NCBI RefSeq assembly: GCF_900129875.1 | Contig: NZ_FQXC01000001.1 | Location: 806,001-870,000, forward strand | Direction: 5' to 3' | From: Marivita hallyeonensis | GTDB lineage: Bacteria > Pseudomonadota > Alphaproteobacteria > Rhodobacterales > Rhodobacteraceae | Length of the DNA stretch: 64,000 nucleotides | Made by a program: the position numbers and the translations under genes | Shown here: positions 21,297-54,214 of the stretch, in pieces | How positions within the stretch are numbered: the stretch's first letter is position 1 | How the letters are laid out: each line of letters opens with the position of its first letter | Notes under the pieces: generated by a model | Database searches by the model: none | What the model was told of the DNA's origin: nothing | Seen by the model: only the letters and a program-made list of their open reading frames with translations

Positions 21297-21307
21297 GGGA
21301 ACGTCTC

Positions 21308-21760
21308 CTACTCGTTCGCCTCGGGCGGCAGAAACTCAACGTCGTGTTCGGCGGAGACCTGAACAACCTTTTCGACATCCGTCATGTTGTGCAGCTCGTC
21401 GAACAGGTCCTTCAGTTTCCCGGCGGGCGACACCCAGAACAGCGCGCGACATGGCTTGTCGGACTTGTTGAAATACCCATGCGGCACGCCGCGCGGCATC
21501 CGGACCAGATCGCCCGCATAGGCCTTGGTCCATTTACCATCGAGCTTGAGGTCCAACTCACCTTCCTGCACCAGAATGAATTCGTCCTGCGTAGGATGGA
21601 TGTGAACAGGCACATGCTGTCCCGGTTCGGAGTTTGTCTCGAACGCAAAGGTGCTGTCGCAATAGGCTTTCACCAGATACTTCTGGCCGAGGATGTTCAG
21701 TTCAGTCCCTGTTTCGCTTGCCCCGTTGGCGGTGATGCCGCCGCTCAGATCATGTGCCAT
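21308..21760 (-). CDS. Metal-binding cupin protein (first of two)
   Basis: Single-domain cupin of 150 residues, function unassigned. Both cupin motifs are complete: motif 1, GQHVPVHIHPTQDEFILVQE, with ligands His, His and Glu; motif 2, GDLVRMPRGVPHGYFN, with the third His. A mononuclear iron, manganese or nickel site is therefore likely. It resembles the cupin at 30309-30767 over its length (shared NILGQ, FNKSD, LFWV, FLPP), so the two are paralogues. The ATG at 21760 has GGGAG 8 bases upstream; the GTG at 21766 is too close. It sits between acyl-CoA dehydrogenase and CoA-ligase genes. Confidence 0.82.
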   Translation of the reverse strand: MAHDLSGGITANGASETGTELNILGQKYLVKAYCDSTFAFETNSEPGQHVPVHIHPTQDEFILVQEGELDLKLDGKWTKAYAGDLVRMPRGVPHGYFNKSDKPCRALFWVSPAGKLKDLFDELHNMTDVEKVVQVSAEHDVEFLPPEANE

Positions 21761-21775
21761 GGTCACAACTCCCTT

Positions 21776-22915: not shown

Positions 22916-23718
22916 CAGTCGCCCTCGAACACGGGTTTTTCCTTGGCGACGAAGGCGTCATAGGCGCGACGGAAGTCATTGCCCTGCATACAGATCGCCT
23001 GCGCCTGCGCCTCGGCCTCAATCGCCTGATCAAGGCTCATGTTCCATTCCTGCGCCAGCATGGTCTTGGTCATGGAATTCGCGAATGTCGGACCGTCGGA
23101 AATGCGCGCGGCCAGCGCAATGGCGTCCGCCTCCAGCGCCTCGGCTGTGCTGACGGAGTTAAAGAACCCCCAACGCTCGCCTTCTTCGGTGCGCAAGGTG
23201 CGCCCGGTATAAAGCAGCTCTGCCGCCCGGCCTTGGCCAATGATCCGGGGGAGCATCGCGCACGCCCCCATATCGCATCCGGCCAGCCCCACGCGGTTAA
23301 ACAGGAACGCCACCTTTGCCTCGGGTCCCGCGATGCGAATATCAGAGGCCATCGCCATAATCGCGCCCGCGCCCGCGCAGACGCCATCGACCGCCGCGAT
23401 GATCGGCTTGCCGCAATGGATCATCGCCTTGACCAGATCGCCGGTCATGCGGGTGAACGCCAAAAGCTCTTTCATCGACATCTTGGTCAGCGGACCAATG
23501 ATATCGTGCACATCCCCGCCTGACGAAAAGTTCCCGCCATTGGGCAGGATCACCACGGCATGGACGTCGTCCGCATAGACGAGCGCCCGAAACCAGTCGC
23601 GCATTTCAGCGTAGCTGTCGAAGGTGAACGGGTTCTTGCGCTCTGGCCGGTCGTGAGAGATCCGCGCGATACCGTCGCGTATCTCGCAGCGAAAGTGCTT
23701 TGGGGCGGGGAGGGTCAT
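22915..23718 (-). CDS. Enoyl-CoA hydratase/isomerase family protein
   Basis: Crotonase-fold protein of 267 residues. The oxyanion-hole regions are [18 protein letters not shown] and [22 protein letters not shown], and [18 protein letters not shown] follows. The usual second catalytic Glu position (GFPE...) reads [17 protein letters not shown], so the reaction need not be simple hydration; crotonases with this pattern include hydrolases and ring-opening or isomerising enzymes. Its ATG overlaps the stop of the MarR gene (ATGA). A role in ring cleavage of the oxo-cyclohexene CoA product is conceivable. Confidence 0.85.
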
Positions 23719-24182
23719 GGCTGCTCCTGTGCGGCGAGGGCCTTTTCAACTAGTCGAGTCAGCGTCTTGGCCTCGTCGGCGGAAAGACCTGTCAGCAAGT
23801 CATCGACCCAGGCTTCGTGATGCCGGGCAAGCGCATCGAACGCCGCCTTGCCGTTGGGGGTCAGCCGCGCCACCTGCGCACGACGGTCGCCGGGACTAGC
23901 GACGCGCAGGGCCAAACCCTCTTCTGTCAGGCGGTCCACGATGCCCGTCACGTTTCCGTTCGAGACCTTCAGATATGTCGACAGGTCGCTCATCTTGAGC
24001 CCATCTGGATACCGCGACAGGGCGGACAGCACGTCGAAGCGCGGCAGTGTGGTGTCGTGATTGTCCCGAAGGCGTCGGCGGAGTGTGGCTTCGATCCCAG
24101 ACGTCAGCTTGAGAAGCTTGAGCCAAAGGCGCAGGCGGCTCTTCGAGATCGGTTCGGTTGCCGGTTTCGTTTGCAGCGTCAT
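23715..24182 (-). CDS. MarR family regulator of the aromatic-CoA cluster
   Basis: Winged-helix repressor-like protein of 155 residues. The recognition region [29 protein letters not shown] and wing [19 protein letters not shown] are typical. It is encoded within the operon (ATGA overlaps on both sides), so its level should follow that of the enzymes. MarR regulators of aromatic pathways usually respond to the aroyl-CoA intermediate. The inverted repeat at 27243-27270 in the divergent promoter is its most likely site. Confidence 0.85.
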
Positions 24183-24898
24183 ACCTCGCCTCCCGAGACT
24201 GACAGAGCGTGACCGTTGATCGAGGCCGCACCCTCGGACGCGAGGAAAAGAGCTGTGGCAGCAACCTCGGATGGATCAATCAACCGGCCCTGTGGGTTGG
24301 CTGATGTGACCATCTTGGTGGCCTTGTCGCGATCGACATCGAACCGGCTCATCAAGCCGGTGATCGCGGTGTCCGCCAGATCGGTATCGGTGAATCCCGG
24401 ACAGATGGCGTTGCAGGTGATGCCCGCCTTCGCCACATCCAGCGACACCGCCCGCACCAGTCCCAATACGCCGTGCTTGGCCGCAACGTATGCCGGAACT
24501 GACGGGTTGCCCTTGAGAGCAGCGGTTGACGCGATGGCGATCAATCGACCCCCTGCGGTCATTCCCTTCAACGCCTCACGGAAGACCAGGAAGGTGCCGG
24601 TCATGTTCACGGTCAGCGTTGCGGTCCAGTCCTCAAGCGACAGGTCGCGTATCTTGGCCTGAGCCCCGCCGCCTGCATTCGCGATGACTACGTCATAGGG
24701 CGCGTCGAACAGAGCTGCGACCTGCGCTTCGTCCGTCACATCGGCGACTTTCGGCGTGATTGCGCGGCCCTCGGCAGCCGCTTCCAACACGTCCTGCCTG
24801 CGCCCGGTGATTGTCACGGCATCACCGGCATCGGCGAACGCGTGGGCAATCGCCTTGCCGATCCCTGTCCCGCCACCTGTGACCAGAACCCGTCTCAT
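24179..24898 (-). CDS. Short-chain dehydrogenase/reductase
   Basis: NAD(P)-dependent oxidoreductase of 239 residues. It has the cofactor motif [10 protein letters not shown] near the N-terminus, NAGGGAQ near residue 90, the catalytic Ser in IAIASTAAL and the YVAAK motif. ARRQD-like residues after strand 2 (GRRQDVLE) hint at NADP preference. The ATG at 24898 overlaps the monooxygenase/reductase stop (ATGA). In the cluster it would oxidise a hydroxyacyl-CoA or reduce a ring ketone. Confidence 0.88.
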
Positions 24899-27189
24899 GC
24901 GCGCAACATCTCTGCTTCCCGGTCCGCGAGACGCCATGCCTGATCGCGGCCCGCGAGGTATGGCAGGGGCCAGTCGGTCGCAGCACGGTCGCCGATCTTC
25001 GACCCTTCGCGCAGCGTCCAGTATGGATCGGCCAGGTGGGGGCGGCCAACCGCAACCAGATCGGCGCGGCCTGCCATCAGGATCGAATTGGCGTGGTCGG
25101 CCTCGTAGATGTTGCCGACTGCCATCGTCCTAATCCCCGCTTCGTTGCGGATGCGGTCACTGAACGGCGTCTGGAACATGCGGCCATAGACGGGTTGTGC
25201 GTCTGGCGTCGTTTGCCCGGCTGAGACGTCGATCAAATCGGCACCGGCGTTGGCAAACGCCTGAGCAATCAGCACGGCATCCTCTGGCGTTACGCCGTCT
25301 TCACCCACCCAATCGGTCGCGGAAATGCGCACCGACATCGGCTTGTGCGCCGGCCAAACGGCGCGCATCGCTTCGAACACCTCCAACGGCCACCGCATCC
25401 GGTTTTCGAGTGACCCGCCGTATTCATCGGTCCGCACGTTCGAGACAGGCGACAGGAAGGAGGACACCAGATAGCCGTGCGCGGCATGCAATTCGATCAT
25501 GTCAAAACCTGCACGCTCGGCCATCTGGGTTGCGGCCACGAACTCATCGCGAACCTGATCCATCTCGGCACGGGTAATCTCGCGCGGGGTGGCGTTCTCT
25601 TTTGACCACGGAATTGGCGAGGCGCTGACAACGTCCCAATTGCCCTCTGGCAAAGGGGCGTCCATCGTGTCCCACCCCAGCTGGGTAGACCCCTTGCGCC
25701 CGGAATGTCCGATCTGACAGCAGATCTTTGCGTCTGTGTGCGTATGCACGAAATCGGTAAGACGCGACCACGCCGCTTCATGTTCGGGTGCATAGAGACC
25801 GGGACAGCCCGGCGTGATCCGGCCTTCGGCGCTCACACAGGTCATTTCCGTATAGACGAGGCCCGCGCCGCCTTTTGCCCGCTCTCCATAATGGATCAGA
25901 TGCCAGTCGGTCGGGCAGCCATCTACAGCCTTGTACTGGGCCATGGGTGACACCACGATGCGGGATTTCAACTCCATATCGCGCAGTTTGAAGGGGGCAA
26001 ACATCGGCGCTCGGACAGGCGCGTTGGGTGACACCCCCGCCTGATCCATGAACCATCGTTCCGCGCTTTCCAGCCACTTCGGGTCGCGCGCGCGCAGGTT
26101 CTCATGGCTGATCCGCTGCGACCGGGTCAGCATCGAATAGTTGAGCTGCACCGGGTCGAGCACGAAATACCGCTCCACCGTCTCGAACCACTCCATCGAG
26201 TTGCGCGCCGCGGATTGCAGGCGCAGCACTTCGAGCCTGCGGTCTTTTTCGTACCGGTCAAACGCCACCTGCATGTCGTCCTCGCCATGCAGCAAATCCG
26301 CCAGCGCGATCGCGGACTCCAAAGCCAGCTTCGTGCCTGAGCCGATGGAGAAATGCGCCGTCGCTGCCGCGTCACCCAAGAGCACGACATTCTCATGGCT
26401 CCATTTCTCGCACAGCACGCGCGGGAAGCGCAGCCAGGCCGACCCGCGGATGTGGTTGGCATTGGTCATCAGGGAATGACCGCCAAGGTGATCCTTGAAG
26501 ATGTCCTCGCAGATCGCGATGCTCTCCTGCTGGCTGATGTTGCCGAATCCGTAGGCGTCAAACGTCTCTTGCGAACACTCCACGATGAAGGTCGCCGTGT
26601 CGTCGTCGAACTGATAGGCGTGCGCCCAGACCCAACCCTTGTCCGTTTCTTCGAAGATGAACGTGAAGGCATCATCGAACCGCTGATGCGTTCCAAGCCA
26701 GACAAACTGGCAGTGCCGCAGGTCAATCTCGGGTTTGAACGTGTCTTGATACAGCAGGCGCGTTTTCGAATTGAGACCGTCACAGGCGACCACGACGTCG
26801 TAGTCCTTGGCATATGTCTCGGCGCTTTCAACCTCGGTTTCAAAGCGCAGATCGACGCCTAACTCTCGGGCGCGATCCTGAAGCAGAATCAACAGCTTCT
26901 TGCGGCCGATGCCGCAGAACCCGTGCCCGGAAGAGGTAATGACTTCACCCTTGTAGTGCAGAGCGACGTCATCCCAATAAGCGAAATGCGCCCGTATGGC
27001 CTCCGCACTTTTCGGGTCGTTGGCGGCAAGGTTGTCCAGCGTTTCGTCTGACAGAACGACGCCCCAGCCGAACGTGTCATCCGGTTTGTTGCGCTCGAAC
27101 ACCGTGATGTCATGCGACGGATCGCGCAGTTTCATCGAGATCGCAAAGTAGAGACCTGCAGGCCCACCACCGAGACACGCAACGCGCAT
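24895..27189 (-). CDS. Fused FAD monooxygenase/Old Yellow Enzyme, 2-aminobenzoyl-CoA monooxygenase/reductase type
   Basis: Bifunctional flavoprotein of about 764 residues. The N-terminal half is a PheA/PHBH-type FAD monooxygenase: GGGPAGL at residues 7-13, and [21 protein letters not shown] near residue 290. From about residue 390 an Old Yellow Enzyme domain follows: [49 protein letters not shown]. This fusion is the hallmark of 2-aminobenzoyl-CoA monooxygenase/reductase (Azoarcus evansii), also annotated as salicylyl-CoA 5-hydroxylase/oxidoreductase. The known reaction hydroxylates and reduces 2-aminobenzoyl-CoA to 2-amino-5-oxocyclohex-1-enecarboxyl-CoA. The ATG at 27189 has AAAGG upstream. 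It heads the minus-strand operon. Confidence 0.88.
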
Positions 27190-27242
27190 TTTCAGCAACC
27201 TTTCATTTCGGTCAGTTTAAGCATTCTTCAGGCATGGTCATA

Positions 27243-27270
27243 TTTCAAGCATAAAATTTCGTGCTTGAAA
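27243..27270. promoter_or_regulatory. Candidate operator between the divergent catabolic operons
   Basis: A perfect 9-base inverted repeat, TTTCAAGCA (27243-27251) and TGCTTGAAA (27262-27270), separated by 10 AT-rich bases. It lies 54 bases upstream of the minus-strand monooxygenase/reductase start and 157 upstream of the plus-strand hydratase/dehydrogenase start, in an AT-rich patch unlike the surrounding GC-rich DNA. The cluster-encoded MarR protein is the obvious candidate to bind it and control both arms. Confidence 0.6.
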
Positions 27271-27426
27271 GTTTTGAATATATAACTTTTGCTGAGCCTG
27301 ACGAATCCGAGGGAGGTCCTGCATTTTGGACGCCACGCGCATCCCTGAACCAGCCCACACCAAGGGCACGACCCTGCTGCGTCCTCCGGCATATAGGCGA
27401 GCGCAACCAGGATTGCGGGCCTTTCC

Positions 27427-29370
27427 ATGACAGTCGACATCGCGCGCCAAGGTGACCTTGCGATTGTCACCATCGACAATCCACCAGTAAATGCGACGTC
27501 GCAGGCTGTCAGGCAGGTGCTGAGTGATGCTGTTCGACAAACCTCGTCCGACCCGGATGTGCGTGCCGTCGTGTTGCGCTGTGCCGGAAGGACCTTCGTT
27601 GCTGGTGGGGACGTCACGGAATTTGACAAACCCCCGGTCCCGCCACACTTGCCCGACGTCATCGCCGCGATCGAGGATGCGGACAAGCCATGGATCGCGG
27701 CGCTGCATGGCTCGGTTCTTGGCGGCGGGTTGGAACTTGCCATGGGGTGTCACGCACGCATCGGCGCCCCGGCGACGAAACTGGGCCTGCCGGAAGTCTC
27801 GCTTGGTCTGATCCCGGGTGCAGGAGGCACCGTGCGCTTGCCGCGCCTTGTTGAGGCAGACCTGGCCTTGGACATGGTCGCAACCGGAAAGCCAATTTCG
27901 GCAGAACGCGCGCTAAAGGCGGGCTTGATCGACCGGATTGCCGAGGGCGACCTTCTGGACGCAGCGAAAGAGCTCGCCCGCCGCACGACGGCACCACGAC
28001 GCACGCTTTCGCGTCCTGCCCGGCCGCCGAAAGATCCAAATGCGTTTGCGGCAGAAGCGGCCACACTGCGCGCCAGGGCGCGGGGTCAGAATTCTCCTGT
28101 CGCGGCCGTCGCGGCGATCGAACGCGCACTTGAGCTCCCGGCCGACGCAGCACTTGCAGCCGAACGGCAAGACTTTTTGGAGCTGAAGGCAGACCCGCAA
28201 AGCAAGGCCCTGCGGCGGATGTTCTTTGCTGAACGGCAGACGCTGAAGGACGACCCGCGCGCGGCAGGCACGGCGCGGCCCCTGGCGCACATCGGCGTCG
28301 TCGGTGGCGGTACCATGGGCGCAGGCATCGCTGCCGCGGCGCTATTATCGGGCCTGTCCGTCACGATGGTCGAACGCGACGCAGATGCCCTCGCGGCGGG
28401 GCAAGGCCGCGTTGGTGATATTCTCGACGGCAGCCTTAAACGCGGCAAGATCAGCCCCAAGCGCCATGCTGAAATACAGGCTGTCTTTGCCGGATCGGTA
28501 GACTATGCCGCGCTTTCTGACGCAGACCTTGTGATCGAAGCTGTGTTCGAGGACATCCAGGTCAAGACAACCGTTTTCAAGGCACTCGACAGCGCCACGC
28601 GCCCTGATGCGGTCCTCGCCACGAACACGTCCTATCTGGATGTCGGCCAGATCGCGTCTGCGGTGTCCGATCCATCCCGCGTGATCGGACTGCATTTCTT
28701 CTCTCCCGCGCACATCATGAAGTTGCTGGAGCTGGTCGTCCCTGACAGGGCGTCCCCTGACGCGGTGGCGACCGGTGCTGCCTTGGGCAAGCGTTTGGGC
28801 AAGATCACCGTTTTGTCGGGCGTCTGCGACGGCTTCATCGGCAACCGGATCATGTCGGCCTACCGACGAGAGGCGGATTACATGATCGAAGACGGGGCCT
28901 TGCCCGCGGACGTGGACAAGGCGATGCGCGACTTTGGATTTCCGATAGGCGTGTTCGAGATGCAGGATCTCGCCGGGCTCGACATCGCGTGGGCCATGCG
29001 CAAACGGCGGGCTGCGACCCGCGACCCGAATGAGCGATACATCGAGATTGCGGACCGGTTGTGCGAACAGGGTCGTCTCGGGCGAAAGACCGGCAAGGGT
29101 TGGTATCGGTATTCGGGCAAAACAGCCGAGGTTGATCCGGAGGTCACGGCCCTCATCGAAGCGGAATCGGCACGCAAGGGCATCGTGCGAAAGCCGCTTT
29201 CCGACGACGCCATCATGGCCCGCATTCTGACGGTTATGCAGACCGAGGGACGCGCGATCCTTTCGGAGGGGATTGCCGCGAAAAGCAGTGACATCGATGT
29301 GGTGATGGTCAATGGTTACGGGTTCCCGCGATGGCGGGGCGGGCCGATGTTCATGGCCGGGGAGATGTGA
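27427..29370 (+). CDS. Fused enoyl-CoA hydratase/3-hydroxyacyl-CoA dehydrogenase
   Basis: FadB-like bifunctional enzyme of 647 residues. The crotonase domain (about 1-190) keeps both catalytic Glu positions, in GGGLELAMGCHARI and LGLPEVSLGLIPGAGG. The dehydrogenase part begins with IGVVGGGTMGAGIAA (about residue 283 onward), has the catalytic HFFSPAHIMKLLELV, and ends with the C-terminal domain containing DGFIGNRIM. Unlike the paralogue at 48379-50355, all key residues are present. It is the first gene of the plus-strand operon and fits beta-oxidation of a ring-opened CoA thioester. Confidence 0.9.
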   Translation: MTVDIARQGDLAIVTIDNPPVNATSQAVRQVLSDAVRQTSSDPDVRAVVLRCAGRTFVAGGDVTEFDKPPVPPHLPDVIAAIEDADKPWIAALHGSVLGGGLELAMGCHARIGAPATKLGLPEVSLGLIPGAGGTVRLPRLVEADLALDMVATGKPISAERALKAGLIDRIAEGDLLDAAKELARRTTAPRRTLSRPARPPKDPNAFAAEAATLRARARGQNSPVAAVAAIERALELPADAALAAERQDFLELKADPQSKALRRMFFAERQTLKDDPRAAGTARPLAHIGVVGGGTMGAGIAAAALLSGLSVTMVERDADALAAGQGRVGDILDGSLKRGKISPKRHAEIQAVFAGSVDYAALSDADLVIEAVFEDIQVKTTVFKALDSATRPDAVLATNTSYLDVGQIASAVSDPSRVIGLHFFSPAHIMKLLELVVPDRASPDAVATGAALGKRLGKITVLSGVCDGFIGNRIMSAYRREADYMIEDGALPADVDKAMRDFGFPIGVFEMQDLAGLDIAWAMRKRRAATRDPNERYIEIADRLCEQGRLGRKTGKGWYRYSGKTAEVDPEVTALIEAESARKGIVRKPLSDDAIMARILTVMQTEGRAILSEGIAAKSSDIDVVMVNGYGFPRWRGGPMFMAGEM

Positions 29371-29375
29371 GCGAT

Positions 29376-30194
29376 ATGCCGAAGCGCGACTGGGACGATG
29401 CCTTCGCCAACATGGCGCATGTTGAGGGGTCGGAGAAACTGCCCACCTTCTGGGCCGATCGCGCCGCAGCCTATCGCGCAAGCGGTGTCCGGGTGGACGA
29501 AGATATCCGCTACGGGCCTGCCGAACGCGAGCTGATGGACATCGTGTGGCCGGATGGTGCGCCAAAGGGCCTCGCCGTGTTCGTTCACGGGGGCTTCTGG
29601 ATCCGCATGGACAAGTCTCACTGGACCGATCTGGCAGAAGGTGCGCGTGCCAACGGGTGGGCGGTGGCCTTGCCACAATACACGCTCGCCCCGGAGGCCC
29701 GCATTTCACAGATGACACGCCAAGTGGCCAGCGCGATTGCCCTGGCGGCGGACAAGGTCGATGGTCCGATCCGACTGGCTGGGCATTCGGCGGGTGGGCA
29801 CCTCGTGTCGCGCATGGTGTGCGTTGACAGTCCTTTGCTGACGCCAGTGCTGGACCGGGTTGAGCACGTTCTGTCTCTGTCCGGCCTGCACGATTTGCGC
29901 CCGCTGATGTGGACCGCGATGAACGATCTTCTGAAGCTCGACGAGGAAGAGGCCTGCGCCGAAAGCGCGGCCCTGCTGCGCCCGCATGAACGCGCCAACG
30001 TTACCGCTTGGGTCGGGGGTGGCGAACGGCCTGAATTCATCCGCCAGACAAAGCTGCTTGCGATGATTTGGGACGGGCTCGATGTGCCGATCCGCGAAGT
30101 GATTGAAGGCGATCATAATCACTTCACGGTGCTGGAGAGTTTGAAAGACGCCAACAGCCCGTTAACCCGCGCCTTCGTCGGGCTGAATGGTTAG
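29376..30194 (+). CDS. Arylformamidase-like alpha/beta hydrolase
   Basis: Cytosolic alpha/beta hydrolase of 272 residues resembling kynurenine formamidase of the BNA7/AFMID type: oxyanion motif FVHGGFWIRMDKSHW near residue 70 and nucleophile elbow AGHSAGGHLVSRM near residue 143, followed by LSGLHDLRPL. A late GDHNHF supplies the catalytic His. It begins five bases after the preceding stop. Such enzymes deformylate N-formylkynurenine or N-formylanthranilate, which would feed anthranilate into this pathway; a different ester or amide substrate is possible. Confidence 0.75.
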   Translation: MPKRDWDDAFANMAHVEGSEKLPTFWADRAAAYRASGVRVDEDIRYGPAERELMDIVWPDGAPKGLAVFVHGGFWIRMDKSHWTDLAEGARANGWAVALPQYTLAPEARISQMTRQVASAIALAADKVDGPIRLAGHSAGGHLVSRMVCVDSPLLTPVLDRVEHVLSLSGLHDLRPLMWTAMNDLLKLDEEEACAESAALLRPHERANVTAWVGGGERPEFIRQTKLLAMIWDGLDVPIREVIEGDHNHFTVLESLKDANSPLTRAFVGLNG

Positions 30195-30308
30195 ACGGAG
30201 TGAATGCATGTCAGTCGTTCCGCAGCGAAGCGACACCTGTTTGAATAGCTTTACGCCTGAAATTTAAGAGATAAACTGAACAAAAACGACAACAGGGAAG
30301 GGGAAAGA

Positions 30309-30767
30309 ATGACGGAGATGTCACCCGGGATCGTCCAGTCGCATACCGGCATGGATGCGATTGAATGGAACATCCTCGGGCAAACCTATGTCCCGAAGGC
30401 GAAGACAGATGACTGTTTTTCGTGGCACGCGACCCTGCCACCAGGAACTTTTGTACCGCCCCATATTCACCCGGATCAGGACGAATACCTCTATATTCTC
30501 GAAGGTCGGTTCGACTTTCTGCTCAATGGCGTCGAAGCATTTGGCGAGCCGGGCGATCTGATCAAGCTGCCCAAGGGCATCCCGCACGGGATCTTCAACA
30601 AGTCCGACCAGGCGATCAAAACGCTATTCTGGGTCACGCCGACCGGACCACTCTACGAATTGTTCTGGGCGCTTCACAACCTCGGGCCAGAGCCCGACCC
30701 TGCAGAGGTGGTGGCGATCTCCGCGGCCCATTCCGTTGATTTCCTGCCCCCCGGCAAGTCGAAATAA
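30309..30767 (+). CDS. Metal-binding cupin protein (second of two)
   Basis: Cupin of 152 residues with complete metal ligands: motif 1 GTFVPPHIHPDQDEYLYILE and motif 2 GDLIKLPKGIPHGIFN. It is a paralogue of the cupin at 21308-21760, which sits on the opposite arm of the same cluster. It is preceded by a 114-base gap, so it may have its own promoter, and by an AAGGGG ribosome-binding site. Three bases separate it from the flavin monooxygenase. A dioxygenase, isomerase or ligand-binding role is possible; nothing in the sequence decides. Confidence 0.82.
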   Translation: MTEMSPGIVQSHTGMDAIEWNILGQTYVPKAKTDDCFSWHATLPPGTFVPPHIHPDQDEYLYILEGRFDFLLNGVEAFGEPGDLIKLPKGIPHGIFNKSDQAIKTLFWVTPTGPLYELFWALHNLGPEPDPAEVVAISAAHSVDFLPPGKSK

Positions 30768-46633: not shown

Positions 46634-46781
46634 TCCGAGGCGCTGATTACTGGCAGTTGGAGCACGGTGCAAGAGGCAAATGGCGGATTTTTTAGCAGGG
46701 GCGGGATTGCCGTGTGATGATGGTTTTCAACAAAAATCGCGGCTCTATACTCCGGCGCATCGACAAGAACAAAAGAGCCAG

Positions 46782-47663
46782 ATGCAGGTAGTCCTTCACA
46801 CCGGTGTTCACGAAACGGACGGCGACCGTCTTCTCAAGACGTTGCTGCGCAACCGCGACGGGCTGCGTCCCAAGGGTGTGTCGGTGCCCGGGCCTGGGAA
46901 GTACCGCAAGCTGATCTCGGAGATGCTCAACGCGCTGAACGGTGCTGCGCCCGCGCCCGGCGCGCGCGACGTTCTGGTGGACAGCATTCTCGACGAGGAT
47001 GCCGACCACGTGGACCGGTTGATCCTGTCGCACGAAAACCTGTTTTCCGTCCCCAAAATCGCATTTCAGGGCGGCGTGATCTACCGTAAAGCTGAACAGC
47101 GGCTGCAGGCGGTACGGGACGTTTTCGAGGGCGATGAGCTCGAGCTCTACATGGCCGTGCGCAATCCGGCGACGCTATTGCCCGCGCTGCTTGCCGCGAC
47201 CCCGCACGATACGATGGATGCACTCCTGTTTGGGCTGGATCCGCTGCAGTTCCGCTGGACGGACCTTCTGTCACGGATCATCGAGGCGCTGCCGGGCGTG
47301 CCGATCACCGTGTGGTGCGACGAGGACAGCCCGCTCATCTGGGGAGAGCTGATCCGTGATCTGGCGGGAGTAGAGCCGACGTTTCCGACCATCGGGGCCT
47401 ATTCCCGGCTGGCCGAGATCATGGACAAAGAGGGCATGACGCGTTTCCGCACCTATCTCGAAGAGCGGTCGGACCTGACGGAAATCCAAATCCGCCGGGC
47501 GATGGTGGCGTTTCTCGACAAATACGTGGACGAATCCAAAGTGGAGCACGAACTCGACATCCCTGGGTGGGACGACGCCTTTGTTCAGGAGATGTCGGAA
47601 CGATACGAGGAAGACGTCTTTACCCTTGGCCGCTTGCCGGGTGTAACGATGATGACGCCTTGA
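46782..47663 (+). CDS. Conserved hypothetical protein, sulfotransferase-like N-terminus
   Basis: Soluble protein of 293 residues that I do not recognise as a named family. The opening MQVVLHTGVHETDGDRLLKT resembles the start of sulfotransferase-like P-loop proteins (LH.G..KT.S...), and the later LYMAVRNPATLLPALL resembles their phosphonucleotide-binding strand, but the canonical P-loop is degraded. No signal peptide or membrane segment is seen. It is on the opposite strand from tRNA-Thr and convergent with gapR. A role in polysaccharide or surface modification is only a guess. Confidence 0.65.
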   Translation: MQVVLHTGVHETDGDRLLKTLLRNRDGLRPKGVSVPGPGKYRKLISEMLNALNGAAPAPGARDVLVDSILDEDADHVDRLILSHENLFSVPKIAFQGGVIYRKAEQRLQAVRDVFEGDELELYMAVRNPATLLPALLAATPHDTMDALLFGLDPLQFRWTDLLSRIIEALPGVPITVWCDEDSPLIWGELIRDLAGVEPTFPTIGAYSRLAEIMDKEGMTRFRTYLEERSDLTEIQIRRAMVAFLDKYVDESKVEHELDIPGWDDAFVQEMSERYEEDVFTLGRLPGVTMMTP

Positions 47664-47747
47664 GGTGTGTCGCTGTGACGTAAGGGTCCGAGGGTTGATA
47701 GTTCATCCATCAGCATCCGGCGCACGCGCTGATGCGTGGCTTTTAAG

Positions 47748-48008
47748 TCAACGCATACCCAAGGCTTCTTTGTACATGTCGAGCACGGCTTCTTCTTCGG
47801 CGATGTCGTCGGGTTCGCGTTTGCGCAGCGCGATGACTTTGCGCATGACCTTGGTGTCGTAGCCGCGGGCCTTGGCTTCGGCCATCACCTCTTTCTGCTG
47901 GTCGGCGATGTCTTTCTTTTCCGCTTCCAACCGTTCGAAGCGTTCGATGAATTGGCGCAGTTCGTCTGCGGTGACGCGGTAGTTGGCTTCGATTGCGCTG
48001 TCGTCCAT
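47748..48008 (-). CDS. gapR: GapR family (DUF2312) DNA-binding protein
   Basis: Small nucleoid-associated protein of 86 residues. The sequence is a near-continuous amphipathic helix (RVTADELRQFIERFERLEAE, then KKDIADQQKEVMAEAKARGY) followed by VMRKVIALRKREPDDIAEE, the DUF2312 signature. In Caulobacter, GapR clamps overtwisted, AT-rich DNA ahead of replication and transcription. It is divergent from the small membrane-protein gene. Confidence 0.93.
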   Translation of the reverse strand: MDDSAIEANYRVTADELRQFIERFERLEAEKKDIADQQKEVMAEAKARGYDTKVMRKVIALRKREPDDIAEEEAVLDMYKEALGMR

Positions 48009-48129
48009 CGGGGGCTCCTCACTGTGGTGCGGGTGTCGTAGCGGGGGCGGCGTGGGCCTTCAAGGGCTTGTCGCTCGGACAGTGATCAATTACGCCCGCC
48101 GGGAGCGCGGTTTTCAGGAGCACATGCCA

Positions 48130-48345
48130 ATGGATATTCTGATCTGGTCAGGCGCGACGCTGTCTTTCCTGGGATTGTGCGGTCTGGTCTATTGCATCGT
48201 GCGCGTCGCGAAGGCCCGGAAGTCGGGTATGAGCGACGATGATCTGCGGGATGAAGTAAAACAGGTGATGCCAATCAATCTTGGCGCGCTCTTTGTCTCG
48301 GTCTTTGGGCTGATGCTTGTAATCCTTGGTATCTTCTTCAGCTAG
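48130..48345 (+). CDS. Small two-helix membrane protein
   Basis: Hypothetical protein of 71 residues with two hydrophobic helices (ILIWSGATLSFLGLCGLVYC and INLGALFVSVFGLMLVILGI) joined by a charged cytoplasmic loop (KARKSGMSDDDLRDEVKQV). The ATG at 48130 is preferred because AGGAG lies about 9 bases upstream; the ATG at 48124 is in frame but too close. Proteins like this are common next to housekeeping genes in Rhodobacterales, but I assign no function. Confidence 0.7.
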   Translation: MDILIWSGATLSFLGLCGLVYCIVRVAKARKSGMSDDDLRDEVKQVMPINLGALFVSVFGLMLVILGIFFS

Positions 48346-48378
48346 GCCCTCAGAATCGCGGCTTTCTTGCGGTCTGCG

Positions 48379-50355
48379 TCAGAGCTGATCGAAGCTTTTG
48401 CCGTTCTTGATCAAGTCCTCGAACAGAGGATCGGGCGTCCAGAACGCGGTGTCCCTGTCGGCGATGGCAGTCATCTCGCGTGAGATGTGCAAGAGGCCTT
48501 CGGCGCTTGCCGCATGCAGAACACCGCCTTTCCAACGCGGGATCAGGCCGGTGAGGATCGACACGAGATCGGCATCGCTTGCTTGGGAGATCGCGTTCTC
48601 GCGCAGGGCGCGGGCGGCTTCATTGGCCATCGCTCCGATGAGCAGGGGGGCGATCCGGGTGGGCTGACCGTCCGGCTCGGGCGGGCGGGCCTTGTTCAAG
48701 AGCGCGATGACGGCATCATCGGGTTGCCTGCGTCCGCTTTCGTCATAGCGATAGGCGCCGTGGCCCTGACCGGGACCGTGCCGACCTGCTTCGACAAGCA
48801 CATGGGCCCAGTTGGTGCACCCCTCGGCCCGGTCGTTGCGTGACACGGCCAAAAGCCCCGAAGCGTCGGCGAGTTCGTATGGGGGGGTCGCCATGCCCCA
48901 CGCGCGCATAGCGTCGTCAATCTGATAAGGCGACCAGCCGAGATCGACGAGCCGGTCCGACGCCCGCCAGAGCGCTTCGGTCAGACGGTCGAACAGGCTC
49001 GGGCCGTCGGAGTGTTGAACGACTGCCAGGAGGTTCATGTCCTTGGCGAGACCCAGAGCCTTCTTGAGGTCATCGTCGGCGCCGTCTGGCCCTAGGATGA
49101 TTTCTGCGAGACGCGTCGCCGTTGCGGCCGGGCCAAGGCGGAACGAAAGACGCGGTTCCCGCCCGGGGATGGCCTGCGCCACCAAAAGCCCTTGCGGCAC
49201 CGCAACACCGCGCTGACCACGGGCGGCCCGAAGGGCGATATCCACATCGACAAGCATCTCGTGGGGTGGACCGTGCCGGAGCGCCGCTTGGCATTGCTTG
49301 AGTTTGCCGAGGCCCATGCGGCCCCTTTGCACTTTCTCCATGAGCCGTGCGTTGAGTTGCACGGTGCTTTCCCGCCGTTGCGCGTCGTTCTTGATGGCCC
49401 AGTTGACCTTCAGCCCCTGTTCAAGCGCGAGTTGGGCAAACTGGATGGCAAGCGTTCCGCCGCCCAATATCGCCACCCTGCCCATTTTTGGAATGTCCGA
49501 GCGGCGGATCGTGTTGCGCGCGGTTTGCTCGATATGAAATGCATGCGCCATGGCGCGGGCTTGCGGGGTTTCCAGACAGTCTTCATAGGCAGCGCCCTCG
49601 AAAGCGAGACCCGCGTCCATGGGCAGAACAAGTGCGGCTTCCAGCGCGGACAAGATGTGTCTCGGCGCGGTTTCGTGCGAGGTCGACAGGCGGTCGCGCG
49701 TTTGAGTGAGCGCGCTTTGATAGGCTTGGGGATTCGCAAATCCGGTACGGATGTTGGAGGTTTTGCGAGGGGGGACCGTGTGGGGTTGGGCTGTTTCGAT
49801 GAAAGCTGAGATCGCCTGGAAGGTGTCGCCCTCGAAGACCTGATCCACCAACTGCACGAGCGGTTGTGTCGCAAGAGGTAGAAGATGGCCCTCGATGAGA
49901 AGCTCCACGCTTGGCGCGGCTCCGACAAGCCGGGGAAGACGTTGCGTCGCGCCGGCGTTCGGGATCAGACCCAGCCGAACCTGCGGGAAACCCATGCGGG
50001 CGTCCTTGTGTGCGAGCCGGTAATGGCAGGCGAGGGCAAGCTCTGCGCCTCCGCCGACGATCACGCCGCGCAGGACAGCGATCACTGGTTTGCCGAACCC
50101 TTCGATGCGGGTGCAGAGTGTTGCCAGACGGTTGTCCGTGTCGTCGCCATCGGCGAGCGGGTCGGTGAGGCCGGACGGGAATGCCCCACCTTTGCCAGAC
50201 AAGACCACTGTGTTGACCGCCTCCTCGTCTTCCACGCGGGTCAAGGCCGCGTCGATTTGTTCGAGAACCGTTTTCGAAAGGCGCGCGGATGGTCCGGCAT
50301 TGATCGCGACATGCGCGATGCCGCTCTCGACGACAATGTCGGCTTGCGTGCTCAT
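48379..50355 (-). CDS. FadB-like fatty-acid oxidation protein with degenerate active sites
   Basis: Protein of 658 residues with the layout of FadB: crotonase domain, then two 3-hydroxyacyl-CoA dehydrogenase domains. Catalytic positions have changed. In the hydratase, the second Glu (usual GFPE) is Gln in GFPQVRLGLIPNAGATQRLP. In the dehydrogenase, the nucleotide loop is LGGGTLAIQFAQLAL (no GxGxMG), and the HFFSP motif is replaced by SFRLGPAATATRLAEIILG, losing the catalytic His. Folding residues remain. It may be a pseudoenzyme or have a changed function. It starts 90 bases from the GAPDH gene end (both on the minus strand). Confidence 0.85.
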   Translation of the reverse strand: MSTQADIVVESGIAHVAINAGPSARLSKTVLEQIDAALTRVEDEEAVNTVVLSGKGGAFPSGLTDPLADGDDTDNRLATLCTRIEGFGKPVIAVLRGVIVGGGAELALACHYRLAHKDARMGFPQVRLGLIPNAGATQRLPRLVGAAPSVELLIEGHLLPLATQPLVQLVDQVFEGDTFQAISAFIETAQPHTVPPRKTSNIRTGFANPQAYQSALTQTRDRLSTSHETAPRHILSALEAALVLPMDAGLAFEGAAYEDCLETPQARAMAHAFHIEQTARNTIRRSDIPKMGRVAILGGGTLAIQFAQLALEQGLKVNWAIKNDAQRRESTVQLNARLMEKVQRGRMGLGKLKQCQAALRHGPPHEMLVDVDIALRAARGQRGVAVPQGLLVAQAIPGREPRLSFRLGPAATATRLAEIILGPDGADDDLKKALGLAKDMNLLAVVQHSDGPSLFDRLTEALWRASDRLVDLGWSPYQIDDAMRAWGMATPPYELADASGLLAVSRNDRAEGCTNWAHVLVEAGRHGPGQGHGAYRYDESGRRQPDDAVIALLNKARPPEPDGQPTRIAPLLIGAMANEAARALRENAISQASDADLVSILTGLIPRWKGGVLHAASAEGLLHISREMTAIADRDTAFWTPDPLFEDLIKNGKSFDQL

Positions 50356-50445
50356 CTTCTGCTCCGATGGCCTCTTGGCAGGTTATCTGCCCAAGCTTTT
50401 GCGCGCATTAGAGGTGAAATCGGGCGATCTGGCAAGAATCGCGGA

Positions 50446-51432
50446 TCAGTCTTCCCGCGCGTGCATCATTCGCGCGACATCCAGCATGCGGGCTGAAAAC
50501 CCCCATTCGTTGTCATACCAGCCAAAGATGCGGAGTTGGTCGCCGGTTGCCAGCGTCTCGTGCGGCGCGATGACAAGCGATTCTGTCCGGGCGCGCAGAT
50601 CGACGGACACGCAGGGGTCTTCCACAACGCCGATAACGGCATTGGTCTCGGCGATCTCTCTCAGTGCGCCGGCCGGGTCGTCTGGCGGGTGGGTCAGTCG
50701 GACGACAAGGTCTACGGCAGAGACGCTGATAGCAGGAACGCGAACGGCAGCACCGGTGACGCGACCCGCCAGGTCAGGCAAAACCCGGTCGATCAGCTTT
50801 GCCGCGCTTGTCGTTGTCGGCACCATGCTGACCGCACCGGCACGGTTCCTGGCAAGGTCGGGACCGCGCGGGGCATCCACCATGGGCTGGCTGCCGGTGT
50901 AGCAATGGATCGTTGTCATGTGCCCCTGGATCATACCAAAGCGCGTGTCGAGGTCGCGCAGAAGCGGGGCTAGAGCATTGGTGGTGCAGGACGCGTTGGA
51001 CACGATCCGCGCCGCGCCCATCCGGTCATCGTTTGCGCCAAGGACGATGGTTTCGTCGGCGACATTGGAGGGACCCGAGATCAGGACGGACCGCGCGCCT
51101 GCCCGAAGTGCCGCCGTCGCGGTGCCGCGGGATTTCAGCGCGCCAGTGCAATCCATGACAAGATCGACACCTTTGAGCGGCAAGTCCGGCAAGGCCACGC
51201 CAGTCAAAAGCGGGATATGCCGTCCACCAGCGTGCAGCGCGCCATCCGTGAATGTCGCGCCGCCGGGTAGCGAGCCGAAGACACTGTCGTATTTGAAAAG
51301 ATAGGCACAGGTCTCGGGGCTTGCGATGTCATTGATCACAACGACCTCGATATCGTGATGCGCCGGATCAGTGAGGATCTGGCGCAGGATCACCCGACCG
51401 ATGCGGCCGAAACCGTGAATGACAATCCGCAT
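50446..51432 (-). CDS. Glyceraldehyde-3-phosphate dehydrogenase family protein
   Basis: NAD-dependent dehydrogenase of 328 residues. The N-terminus RIVIHGFGRIGRVILRQI is the Rossmann fold, the adenosine-binding Asp is in VVVINDIASP, the catalytic Cys149 lies in SNASCTTNALAPL, followed by HMTTIHCYTGSQPMVDAPR and GWYDNEWGFSARMLD. Some standard GAPDH positions differ (for example PTTTSAAKLI for PTSTGAAKA), so it is likely a paralogue rather than the main glycolytic enzyme; erythrose-4-phosphate is an alternative substrate. It is divergent from an IclR regulator with 93 bases between them. Confidence 0.85.
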   Translation of the reverse strand: MRIVIHGFGRIGRVILRQILTDPAHHDIEVVVINDIASPETCAYLFKYDSVFGSLPGGATFTDGALHAGGRHIPLLTGVALPDLPLKGVDLVMDCTGALKSRGTATAALRAGARSVLISGPSNVADETIVLGANDDRMGAARIVSNASCTTNALAPLLRDLDTRFGMIQGHMTTIHCYTGSQPMVDAPRGPDLARNRAGAVSMVPTTTSAAKLIDRVLPDLAGRVTGAAVRVPAISVSAVDLVVRLTHPPDDPAGALREIAETNAVIGVVEDPCVSVDLRARTESLVIAPHETLATGDQLRIFGWYDNEWGFSARMLDVARMMHARED

Positions 51433-51485
51433 GCCGGTCCCCCAGAAACGCCCTCGTGCGTCGCGGGTTGCATTTCAATCTCGAA

Positions 51486-51503
51486 TTTTTCAAATTGTAA
51501 AAA
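51486..51503. promoter_or_regulatory. Candidate operator in the GAPDH/IclR promoter region
   Basis: TTTTTCAAATTGTAAAAA is a near-perfect palindrome around a central A with one mismatched pair (core CAA-A-TTG with T-runs outside). It lies 54 bases upstream of the GAPDH start and 23 bases before the IclR start, so a bound regulator could control both. IclR proteins commonly autoregulate from such positions. Confidence 0.5.
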
Positions 51504-51525
51504 TGTTTTTTGTATCGAGACAATC

Positions 51526-52353
51526 ATGAACGCTGAAGCTCCTCCTGAACGCAGATCGCGCGGGCGGCCCCGGGCGTGGGGCGACACCACGGAACAGAAC
51601 AAAATCAAATCCCTCGATCGCGCGCTGATGATCCTGGAACGGTTGGGAGAGCGCGGCGGCGCGACGCTGACCGATTTGGCGGAAGACCTGAAGCAGTCTC
51701 CTGCAACAGTCTACCGCGTGCTGTTCACATTCGAGGCGCGCGGGATCGTGGATTTCGACCCGTCGGCGCAGACATGGCATATCGGAGCCGGGGCGTTTCA
51801 GATCGGGTCACGGTTCCTTCGCCGCACGTCACTGGTGGAACGCGCGCGTCCGTTCCTGCGTGAGCTGATGCAGCGGACCGAGGAAACCGCCAATCTGGGT
51901 ATGATGCGGGACGGTCAGGTGCTGTTCCTGAGCCAGGTGGAGACGCATCACAATATCCGCGCGTTTTTCCCTCCGGGCGCGATGTCGGATATGCATGCGT
52001 CCGGCATCGGCAAGGCGTTGCTGGCGCAACTGCCGGACAAGGACGTGGCGTCGATCATACGGGCGCGAAAGCTCAGCCGGTTTACGGACGAAACACTGGT
52101 CACGCCCGAGGCGTTGGCGGCAGATCTCGAACAGACGCGGCGCCGGGGATATGCCTTTGACAAGGAAGAGAAGAACCCGGGTATGCGGTGCATCGCGGCG
52201 CCCGTCTTCGACATGCACAGCGAACCCATTGCGGGGGTGTCGATTTCCGGCCCCTCGGCCCGAATTCCTGATGAACGGGTCGAGGAGCTTGCCCGCGCGG
52301 TGCAACACGCGGCCACGCAATTGACCGAAGCGTTGGGCGGCACGCCGCCCTAG
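51526..52353 (+). CDS. IclR family transcriptional regulator
   Basis: Regulator of 275 residues. After a basic arm RRSRGRPRAWGDTTEQNKI comes the winged helix (LSDLA-like TDLAEDLKQSPATVYRVLFTFEARGI) and a GAF-like effector domain (SGIGKALLAQLPDKD, GYAFDKEEKNPGMRCIAAPV and SISGPSARI). The Arg-rich opening and KSLDRAL stretch resemble the BhcR group that controls glyoxylate assimilation, but no bhc genes are in the window. The ATG at 51526 is chosen; the frame upstream is non-coding. It converges with metF with a 4-base overlap. Confidence 0.85.
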   Translation: MNAEAPPERRSRGRPRAWGDTTEQNKIKSLDRALMILERLGERGGATLTDLAEDLKQSPATVYRVLFTFEARGIVDFDPSAQTWHIGAGAFQIGSRFLRRTSLVERARPFLRELMQRTEETANLGMMRDGQVLFLSQVETHHNIRAFFPPGAMSDMHASGIGKALLAQLPDKDVASIIRARKLSRFTDETLVTPEALAADLEQTRRRGYAFDKEEKNPGMRCIAAPVFDMHSEPIAGVSISGPSARIPDERVEELARAVQHAATQLTEALGGTPP

Positions 52354-53216
52354 GCGACGTTGCGCAGTTCGATTTTCGGTGTGACGCCCAAAGCGTGACA
52401 CACGTCACGGGTCAGATCCGGGCGGTTCAGTGTGTAGAAATGCAAGCTGTCGACACCACCGTCGAGCAGGTCAGAGCACAGTTCGGCGCAAATGGCGGTG
52501 GCAAGCAGGTCTTCGCGGCCATCACGCTCGGCCTTTTCGAACGCATCGACGACCCAGGCAGGGATATGCGTGCCACAGCGTTTGGCAAACCGCACCGCGC
52601 CTTTCCAGTTCTCGATCGGCAGGATGCCGGGGGTGATCGGTTTGTCGATTCCGGCTTTCTCGCAGGCGTCGCGGAAGCGGAAAAACGTCTCGGCCTCAAA
52701 GAAGAACTGCGTCAGTGCCTCCGACGCGCCGGCGTCAAATTTGCGCTTAAGGTAGGCCACATCGGCGTCAGCGCTTTTGGCTTCGGGATGGATGTCGGGA
52801 TAGGCGCCGACGCGGATGGTAAAGTGACCCGTGTCCGACAGCGCTTCGATCAGGTCAATGCTTGATGCAAATCCATCCGGATGGGGTGTGAAACCCTCGG
52901 TACCTTTGGGCGGATCACCGCGCAGCGCGACAATGTCCGTCACACCCGCCGTAGCGAAGTCTTGTGCGATCTTCAGTGTTTCCTCACGCGTTGCGTTCAC
53001 ACAGGTGAGATGCGCAGCGACGGGCAGGCCGCTCGACTTGTGCAGCGTCGCAACTGCCTCGCGCGTCAGGTCGCGAGTGGTGCCGCCCGCACCGTAGGTG
53101 ACGGACACGAAACGTGGGCTGAGCGGGGCCAGCGCCTGTACGGTGTCCCATAGGCGGAACGAGCCTTCGAGCGACTGGGGCGGGAAGAATTCGAAGGAAA
53201 CAGAAGGTGTGGTCAT
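52350..53216 (-). CDS. metF: 5,10-methylenetetrahydrofolate reductase
   Basis: FAD enzyme of 288 residues reducing 5,10-methylene-THF to 5-methyl-THF, the methyl donor for methionine synthesis. It opens VSFEFFPPQSLEG, with the catalytic Glu in SFEFFPP, and continues with VSVTYGAGGTTR, HLTCVNATREE, ALRGDPPKG and ALTQFFFEAE. AAGGGA precedes the ATG at 53216. It is divergent from a MetR-type LysR gene, a classic arrangement. Confidence 0.96.
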   Translation of the reverse strand: MTTPSVSFEFFPPQSLEGSFRLWDTVQALAPLSPRFVSVTYGAGGTTRDLTREAVATLHKSSGLPVAAHLTCVNATREETLKIAQDFATAGVTDIVALRGDPPKGTEGFTPHPDGFASSIDLIEALSDTGHFTIRVGAYPDIHPEAKSADADVAYLKRKFDAGASEALTQFFFEAETFFRFRDACEKAGIDKPITPGILPIENWKGAVRFAKRCGTHIPAWVVDAFEKAERDGREDLLATAICAELCSDLLDGGVDSLHFYTLNRPDLTRDVCHALGVTPKIELRNVA

Positions 53217-53262
53217 CGTGAATATCCCTTGGATTTGGCACCTTGTCGCATGGACCGCATTG

Positions 53263-53297
53263 TGAGACAAACTCATAAAACTCATCACCAACATGAG
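53263..53297. promoter_or_regulatory. Candidate MetR binding sites between metF and the LysR gene
   Basis: Two palindromes sit close together in the 92-base promoter region: TGAG-ACAAA-CTCA (53263-53275) and CTCAT-N7-ATGAG (53281-53297). MetR sites in enterobacteria are TGAA-N5-TTCA, so the first is a good structural match with a changed half-site. Position just upstream of the regulator start and 47-81 bases from metF suggests dual control. Confidence 0.55.
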
Positions 53298-53308
53298 GTG
53301 AACAGATA

Positions 53309-54214
53309 ATGCATATCGAGTTTCGGCACCTGCGCACCGTCAAGGCCATCCATGAATGCGGTGGTGTCGCGCGGGCCGCAGACCAGTTGAACATCACGCA
53401 ATCTGCGCTGAGCCATCAGATCAAGGCGCTTGAAGATCAGGCGGGGGTCGAGCTTTTTGTGCGACGGTCAAAGCCGATGAAACTGTCGGCAGCGGGGATG
53501 CGGCTCTTGCGGCTCGCAGACCAGGTGCTGCCGCAGGTCGAAGCGCTGGTGGCAGAGTTCGATGGGTTACGTGACGGGTCGTCTGGCCGCATGCATATCG
53601 CCATCGAATGTCATGCCTGTTTTGAATGGCTGTTCCCGGTGTTGGAAGCGTTCCGCAAGACGTGGCCGGATGTGGATGTCGATATCCGCCCGGGTCTGGC
53701 GTTCGATGCTTTGCCCGCGCTGCAGAAGGAAGAGGTCGATCTTGTGGTGTCCTCCGATCCGGAAGACCTGCCTGGTGTGACCTTCACCGAGCTTTTTGAT
53801 TACAACGCTGTCTTCGTTGCCGCGGCGGCGCACCCCTTGGCGCAGAAAGACTATGTCGAGGCAGAGGACTTTCGCGGGCAAACGCTCATCACCTACCCGG
53901 TGGAGCGGTCCCGTCTGGACGTGTTCAGCCAGCTATTGATGCCGGCAAAAGTCGAACCGGCGGCGGTGCGGCAGGTGGAATTGACGGCCGTCATCCTGCT
54001 GCTTGTGGCCTCCAACCGCGGCGTGTCTGTCTTGCCGGATTGGGTGGTGCGCGAGGTCAAGTACAGCTCGGATTACGTCACCCGCCCGCTCACACAGGAT
54101 GGAATCACGCGGCGACTTTATGCGGCGACCCGGTCAACGGACACCGACAAACCCTTTGTCTCGGATTTGATCCGGCTCGCACGTCAGGAGGCGAACCGGC
54201 TGCAAAACGTGTGA
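53309..54214 (+). CDS. metR: LysR family regulator, MetR-type
   Basis: LysR-type activator of 301 residues. The N-terminal HTH (RHLRTVKAIHECGGVARAADQL and QSALSHQIKALEDQAGVELF) is MetR-like; the effector domain has MHIAIECHACFEWLFPVLEAFRKTW, a MetR hallmark around the homocysteine-binding region, and ends at ANRLQNV. It is divergent from metF. MetR senses homocysteine and activates methionine genes. Symbol given from close similarity and position. Confidence 0.88.
   Translation: MHIEFRHLRTVKAIHECGGVARAADQLNITQSALSHQIKALEDQAGVELFVRRSKPMKLSAAGMRLLRLADQVLPQVEALVAEFDGLRDGSSGRMHIAIECHACFEWLFPVLEAFRKTWPDVDVDIRPGLAFDALPALQKEEVDLVVSSDPEDLPGVTFTELFDYNAVFVAAAAHPLAQKDYVEAEDFRGQTLITYPVERSRLDVFSQLLMPAKVEPAAVRQVELTAVILLLVASNRGVSVLPDWVVREVKYSSDYVTRPLTQDGITRRLYAATRSTDTDKPFVSDLIRLARQEANRLQNV

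Follow-up and report, generated by a model that had tools for sequence, protein, structure and literature searches.

The gene at positions 48379–50355 of the window (the whole 64 000-nucleotide stretch of Marivita hallyeonensis DNA analysed here) encodes a FadB-like protein that is best read, from its sequence, as no dehydrogenase, probably no hydratase and still a binder of CoA thioesters. We put the probability that it would bind CoA thioesters without hydrating them at roughly 0.5, a reading favoured by precedents in Glu mutants and by the preserved active-site stretch of its crotonase half. The gene would derive, at its present site, from an intact bifunctional enzyme of the FadB/MFE-1 type, a single chain encoded upstream of gapR. 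Its 3-hydroxyacyl-CoA dehydrogenase half is without the complete NAD loop, the Ser loop, the His and the Asn, and its hydratase half has, in the genus, lost the second Glu and kept the first Glu and the active-site stretch. The crotonase half would then bind CoA thioesters and, at best, hydrate them very slowly, in the manner of the E123A mutant of rat MFE-1; the protein would serve to carry, sequester or sense CoA thioesters, the remodelled central domain with its RGQ motif acting, together with the C-terminal half, as a scaffold or partner surface. Feature positions are collected in Table 1.

Table 1. Features of the window discussed in the text, with position, strand and basis of assignment.
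Feature	Position	Strand	Basis
FadB-like protein, dehydrogenase-degenerate (ECH + 3HCDH_N + 3HCDH)	48379..50355	-	ORF, Pfam, alignments
Crotonase (enoyl-CoA hydratase-like) domain, residues 10–179	49819..50328	-	Pfam ECH_1, 82.1 bits
First hydratase Glu, Glu105, kept	50041..50043	-	Alignment, 15/15 genus sequences
Second hydratase Glu position, Gln125 (CAG)	49981..49983	-	Alignment, codon read
NAD-binding domain remnant, residues 291–410; Ala303 at third Gly of GxGxxG, NTS loop deleted	49126..49485	-	Pfam, alignments
LRAARGQRG, residues 375–383	49207..49233	-	Subclade/genus conservation
Catalytic His position of HFFSP, Arg406 here	49138..49140	-	Alignments
Remnant of 3HCDH C-terminal half, residues 411–658; Asp for catalytic Asn	48382..49125	-	Pfam, alignment
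GAPDH-like gene (gap), 90 bp upstream of the FadB-like gene, probable operon partner in the genus	50446..51432	-	Profile scan, locus comparison
Divergent IclR-type regulator scoring as BhcR	51526..52353	+	401 bits, cut-off 350
Conserved small protein (cluster c14) lying between gapR and the FadB-like gene	48131..48345, start inferred; ORF 47983-48345	+	In 11/34 loci
gapR (PF10073), conserved downstream neighbour defining the locus	47748..48008	-	Pfam, 115 bits
Protein conserved at the gapR locus	46680-47663	+	Cluster in 26/34 loci
Intact FadB-type homologue, 28% identical to the window protein	27427..29370	+	Pfam, alignment

The open reading frame lies on the reverse strand and runs for 658 residues without an internal stop, and its codon-usage fit of 0.182 falls inside the range of 11 other window genes (0.147–0.241), as an earlier note on this DNA had it: no frameshift and normal codon usage. 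The protein has the FadB domain order ECH–3HCDH_N–3HCDH, with all three domains above the Pfam gathering score, the 3HCDH_N (28.5 bits) and 3HCDH (26.4 bits) domains barely so. In NCBIfam it comes closest to the FadJ and FadB models, scoring below the FadB/FadJ equivalog cut-offs for both (154 versus 869 bits and 153.5 versus 870); these cut-offs do not discriminate here, because the intact homologue at 27427–29370 falls short as well (427 and 408 bits). That homologue (ECH_1 113, 3HCDH_N 181 and 3HCDH 105 bits) has all motifs, in agreement with the earlier note. It is not a close backup copy, since it shares only 28% identity with the window protein and has an aromatic-CoA neighbourhood, with a salicylyl-CoA 5-hydroxylase-type gene nearby. 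The region 19671–30767 around it contains a benzoate-CoA-ligase-like gene, a salicylyl-CoA 5-hydroxylase-type fusion, an enoyl-CoA hydratase gene, an SDR gene and the intact FadB-type gene, and looks like an aromatic-CoA degradation cluster. An AlphaFold2 model computed with the window protein and one other window protein as the alignment had a mean pLDDT of 41 and a pTM of 0.26 and was discarded.

The catalytic set of the dehydrogenase half comprises the GxGxxG loop, the Ser of NTS, the His of HFFSP, a Glu and an Asn. Of these, the window protein retains only the Glu (Glu418) and the GxG. The nucleotide loop reads LGGGTLA, with Leu for Met and Ala303 for the third Gly, so the GxGxMG signature is indeed missing as first noticed. 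The strongest sign of loss had escaped notice: relative to the homologue at 27427–29370 the window protein has two 11-residue gaps (22 residues deleted altogether), one of which takes out the NTS Ser loop, and the Asn of GFIGNR is replaced by Asp. The proposed replacement of HFFSP by SFRLG stands as far as the loss of the motif is concerned; the string SFRLG itself is two residues out of register, and the alignments place Arg406 on the His. With the nucleotide loop, the Ser loop, the His and the Asn all gone, such a sequence cannot credibly support NAD-linked oxidation by the known mechanism.

The catalytic residues of the hydratase half are two Glu, as described for several crotonase-type enzymes (PMC3660561, PMC10988713, PMC5651017). 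Of this pair, which bifunctional FadB/MFE-1 enzymes have in full, the window protein has Glu105 and lacks the other, so that one of the two catalytic carboxylates is missing; the codon at the second position is CAG, confirming the Gln reported earlier. A full-length orthologue is present in 15 of the 17 genus genomes (its own included), the other 14 copies being 45–50% identical to that of the window. The first Glu is present in all 15 copies and a carboxylate at the second position in none, where 13 have Asn, one has His and one, the window protein, has Gln. Mutants of the corresponding residues are known. The E123A mutant of RnMFE1 (rat peroxisomal MFE-1; PDB 3zwb) lacks the same Glu as the window protein, and its hydratase site is described as inactive, with 2E-enoyl-CoA bound unhydrated; unlike the window protein, it is a laboratory mutant with a working dehydrogenase (PMC10988713). 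In DmdD, E141A lowers kcat/Km for MeSH release by ∼88 000-fold (PMC3660561), and activity was undetected in either Glu mutant of AcuH (PMC5651017). These precedents are Ala or unspecified substitutions, and the genus proteins have Gln, Asn or His instead. Mycobacterium tuberculosis EchA6, described as a non-catalytic crotonase-type protein that binds acyl-CoA (PMC5501465), resembles the proposed role; it belongs to a different pathway, and the likeness is one of function, with no orthology claimed. Unlike the window protein, EchA6 consists of a single crotonase domain.

The crotonase active-site stretch (residues 95–145) is the best-conserved part of the protein in the genus, with 28 of 51 positions invariant among 14 genus sequences, a count reached by only three of 608 windows of 51 residues. 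Residues 1–94 have 20 invariant positions of 94 and residues 291–365, in the NAD remnant, 11 of 75; this remnant is among the least conserved parts, and residues 146–190 are the lowest (6 of 45). The same pattern could be read as a retooled enzyme, in which the crotonase half carries out a CoA-ester reaction with one acid (isomerisation, hydrolysis or lyase-type), with Asn, His or Gln standing in for the second Glu and the dehydrogenase half vestigial; we regard this as possible, if doubtful. The Glu at the first position, invariant in all 15 genus copies, suits such an enzyme and counts against a mere binder, as chemistry may still be done; it may nevertheless be kept for structural reasons, because both Glu side chains of rat MFE-1 also hold loops by hydrogen bonds, according to the description of that structure (PMC10988713). 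In the genus the substitute for the second Glu is in every case polar and either uncharged or weakly basic, and this has the look of a directed change, but which residue takes its place varies (Asn, His or Gln), as expected if a catalytic residue had been lost and no new one gained. The fold is described as supporting many chemistries (PMC3660561), and the conservation of residues 95–145 would fit a new one as well. The active-site stretch is conserved in intact enzymes too; it therefore shows that the pocket is kept and not that the role is new, which counts against the reading as a CoA-thioester binder.

By Nei–Gojobori estimates the gene is under purifying selection, with dN/dS of 0.088–0.318 in the 16 closest genus pairs (0.041–0.455 for the NAD remnant alone) and a median of 0.187 in 21 genus pairs with dS < 1.2. 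The medians of its neighbours are 0.084 for gap (63 pairs), 0.052 for MetF (78), 0.035 for gapR (77) and 0.051 for the IclR gene (72), so the value for the gene is 2–5 times theirs. Mean within-genus identity is 63.6% for the gene, compared with 87.0% for gap, 90.9% for MetF and 95.4% for gapR. The constraint is thus weak, and the gene kept but loosely, because its identity is far below and its dN/dS above those of the neighbours; this weakness and the absence of the gene from two of the 17 genus genomes (G007 and G010) are further points against the binder reading. G007 has every other gene of the locus (ABC, MetR, MetF, IclR, gap, the small gene and gapR), and no match to this one was found in it, so the gene is dispensable there.

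Such looseness raises the prospect that the gene is on its way out, with redundancy after duplication having relaxed selection on a decaying protein. We consider this very improbable, since dN/dS is well below 1 in every segment, the NAD remnant included (0.04–0.46, 16 pairs), and long open frames occur in many genera; the window copy itself, without breaks and with dN/dS of 0.09–0.32, does not have the marks of a pseudogene. What would agree with decay is the fast evolution of the gene, its clean absence in G007, an in-frame TGA in one genus copy (locus L027 of G005, on a 3-kb contig), the lack of a FadB-like ORF in 38 of 70 stretches picked by gapR, and the loss of the second carboxylate in nine and of the first in five of 49 sequences from outside the genus. 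A CoA-thioester-binding protein under light constraint remains our preferred description.

The deletion in the NAD domain is common to the genus orthologues, which have LRAxRGQ before it; Gly380 and Gln381 of LRAARGQRG are kept in at least 92% of a 26-member subclade, and Arg379 is kept in the genus. Orthologues with the usual motifs, as a recent local mutation would leave, were looked for in the genus and not found, and the observed losses are, on this comparison, not a local mutation. The suggestion that the gene has been kept for a non-standard role is borne out to that extent, because the losses are common to orthologues and the gene is under purifying selection. A conserved loss of the HFFSP His was considered and rejected: in the 14-row genus alignment (with context, G005 being left out) the position holds Gln in seven rows, His in five, Asn in one and Arg in one, and the His position is unconstrained, given that five of the 14 rows have His.

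In the genus the gene stands in a constant neighbourhood. In the window, and likewise in each of the 13 other genus loci examined, gap is found ∼100 bp upstream of the gene in the same orientation, with the IclR gene divergent beyond it. Genes scanned in 46680–54214 comprise gap, the IclR gene, MetF, a MetR-like gene, gapR and two without a match, the latter being the proteins at 46680–47663 and 47983–48345, for which no Pfam or NCBIfam match was found; no thiolase gene (fadA) was found among these neighbours. The arrangement invites the view that the protein is a scaffold or subunit for which CoA-ester binding is irrelevant and which is kept for contacts with an intact FadB, a thiolase or the upstream GAPDH. 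The C-terminal residues Trp486, Pro492 and Asn515-Trp516, conserved in the 26-member subclade and absent from the intact homologue, are in line with such contacts. We hold this view to be improbable: conservation peaks at the crotonase active site, the 20 loci examined outside the genus (L084–L103) yielded neither gap nor a BhcR-like gene, and the closest solved relatives are, as we take it, one-chain enzymes. For the earlier suggestion of a subunit, nothing in the scanned neighbourhood or in those presumed one-chain structures points to a thiolase complex. The CoA-ester sensor also suggested earlier would be compatible with the observations.

The regulator BhcR controls the β-hydroxyaspartate cycle, which is linked to glyoxylate. 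In all 14 gene-bearing genus genomes judged (its own included; G005, whose copy is on the 3-kb contig, is left out of the count), the sole BhcR above the cut-off is at the window-type locus. BhcA scores above the cut-off in 16 of 17 genus genomes, in the window's own on another contig, and the regulator seems to have come apart from the genes of its pathway across most of the genus; in G010, which lacks the gene, BhcR is found beside BhcA–D and a gap gene. Our guess is that gap and the window gene answer to this glyoxylate-linked regulator.

The constant neighbour of the gene is a small downstream gene, which Pfam identifies in the window as gapR; it is present in 33 of the first 34 loci (the window and 33 others), usually as the next gene or after one small gene. 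A few loci have it after insertions, and in the remaining one, L077, the stretch begins where a contig does. Of 295 family genomes, 280 have a gapR match. We compared 114 loci: the window, 33 retrieved for their similarity to the gene, 70 drawn from the gapR listing (L104–L163 and L171–L180) and ten through FadB-like matches. A FadB-like ORF is present in 76, of which 13 are intact and 63 belong to a degenerate group (two of them intermediates); the 76 are a non-random sample, the first 33 having been chosen by similarity to the window protein. The other 38 have gapR and no FadB-like ORF longer than 150 residues in the stretch, a few of these stretches being truncated where the contig stops, as in L147 (1.9 kb). 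The fairest sample is the 60 loci L104–L163, read off the gapR listing in order, omitting four rows and any loci already included: 26 have a FadB-like ORF (five intact and 21 degenerate) and 34 have none. L171–L180, hand-picked from the same listing with some known beforehand to have FadB-like matches, include six FadB-like ORFs, one of them intact.

Where gapR is within the stretch, all eight intact and all 60 degenerate genes are on its strand. The eight intact genes (L131, L140, L151, L152 and L160 of the fairest sample, with L165, L166 and L177) share their strand and their order relative to gapR with the window gene, at 134–388 bp in six of them and ∼2 kb in L160 and L165; they have all the catalytic residues examined, unlike the window protein. 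Distances of 3.3 and 4.4 kb separate gene and gapR in L138 and L149. Judged by this arrangement, the window gene is a positional orthologue of the FadB-like gene upstream of gapR. A functional link to GapR was considered for the constancy of the neighbourhood and is not claimed, because the arrangement may reflect nothing but synteny, and in at least some loci a small gene on the opposite strand intervenes (c14, 11 of 34).

Residue assignments in the 63 degenerate rows are taken from one MAFFT alignment of divergent proteins. Counting the Ser, His, Glu and Asn of the dehydrogenase half, four rows keep none, 49 keep one, eight keep two, one keeps three (L111) and one keeps all four (L182). Residue by residue, the Glu is retained in 58 rows, the third Gly of the loop in 16, the His in ten, and the Ser and the Asn in two each. 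At the first hydratase position 52 rows have Glu and six Asp; at the second, 27 have Glu, 13 Asp, 12 Asn, four Gly and two His, with one each of Gln, Ser, Ala, Tyr and Cys. The expectation that orthologues would share the losses is thus borne out for the dehydrogenase residues in nearly all 63 rows, and for the second Glu in the genus (no carboxylate in 14 of 14 rows) but not outside it (nine of 49). Many relatives outside the genus may still be hydratases, because the second carboxylate is missing in so few of them: 35 of the 49 outside rows have a carboxylate at both positions and 20 have Glu at both, and the latter are probably plain hydratases without a dehydrogenase. Twelve members of the 26-row clade that includes the window protein come from outside the genus (L084–L095); at the second position nine of them have Glu and one has Asp, with Ser in L094 and Gly in L095. 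A confinement of the second-Glu loss to the genus was rejected on these numbers; the loss is fixed among the genus copies but sporadic elsewhere.

The loss of the dehydrogenase would escape a simple domain search, since Pfam 3HCDH_N is still found at E 0.001 in 53 of the 63 degenerate sequences, as it is in all 13 intact sequences. The NAD domain is absent from three short forms (L110, L120 and L130; 456–468 residues), the hydratase half running into the C-terminal half; the domain check by Pfam was made on L120. L182 (2790–4997, +) and L111 (1672–3759, -), with four and three of the four dehydrogenase residues, are best called intermediates; their motifs are altered, for example to HLCPP and TTVSWLD in L182.

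In the full-length tree all 63 degenerate rows form one clade (100, starred), within which the window protein belongs to a 14-row genus clade nested in one of 26 rows, both starred. The hydratase-half tree has five changes between intact and degenerate, or three if L182 and L111 are counted as intact, and starred branches force at least two; L182 is in a starred mixed group of four degenerate and four intact rows. Both are quick trees with SH-aLRT support, and the starred values are those less trusted by the tool itself. The single loss of the dehydrogenase that the full-length tree would give was not accepted, as this tree includes the degenerate half and carries a warning of long branches. 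More than one loss is likely because the hydratase-half tree needs five changes, at the support of a quick tree, and the loss is old and probably repeated. The loss of the second Glu in the genus is, as the distribution of residues indicates, younger than that of the dehydrogenase.

A wider reading is that the family has repeatedly turned one gapR-linked β-oxidation enzyme into a non-catalytic CoA-thioester receptor, with the NAD domain rebuilt (RGQ motif) or cut out and the crotonase pocket as the ligand site; in the genus this receptor would be tied to gap beside a BhcR-type regulator, reporting or buffering acyl-CoA for central carbon metabolism. We advance this tentatively and think it rather unlikely as a whole. 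The series at one chromosomal site, from intact genes through the intermediates to forms that are dehydrogenase-dead, lack the NAD domain or lack the second Glu, lets one watch a bifunctional enzyme lose its activities successively while selection keeps the protein. Naming by homology would credit this positional family with a dehydrogenase step that most of its members cannot make, and the wrong step would enter metabolic models.

No paper on this FadB-like family was found among open-licence papers searched by titles and abstract openings. The one match in a named genome to the window sequence, used as a single-sequence query, is from Cupriavidus (33% identity over the hydratase part), a plasmid search gave at most 31% identity among the matches listed, and L184 and L185 are further outside orthologues with 37–39% identity. 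The solved structure closest in sequence over both halves is PDB entry 6ium/6iun, a 701-residue enoyl-CoA hydratase/isomerase chain with the same domain order (204.9 bits with the window protein and 417.7 bits with the 26-member profile). We take it to be Cupriavidus necator FadB′, and the nearest solved structures to be one-chain bifunctional enzymes. In the aligned part examined it has PEVKLG and GAGTMG; in the window protein a Gln stands in place of the Glu of PEVKLG, and the NAD domain is shorter. At L107 (2001–4355, -), which encodes 784 residues, a short repeated stretch of the RLPxLRL type is inserted where HFFSP would be expected.
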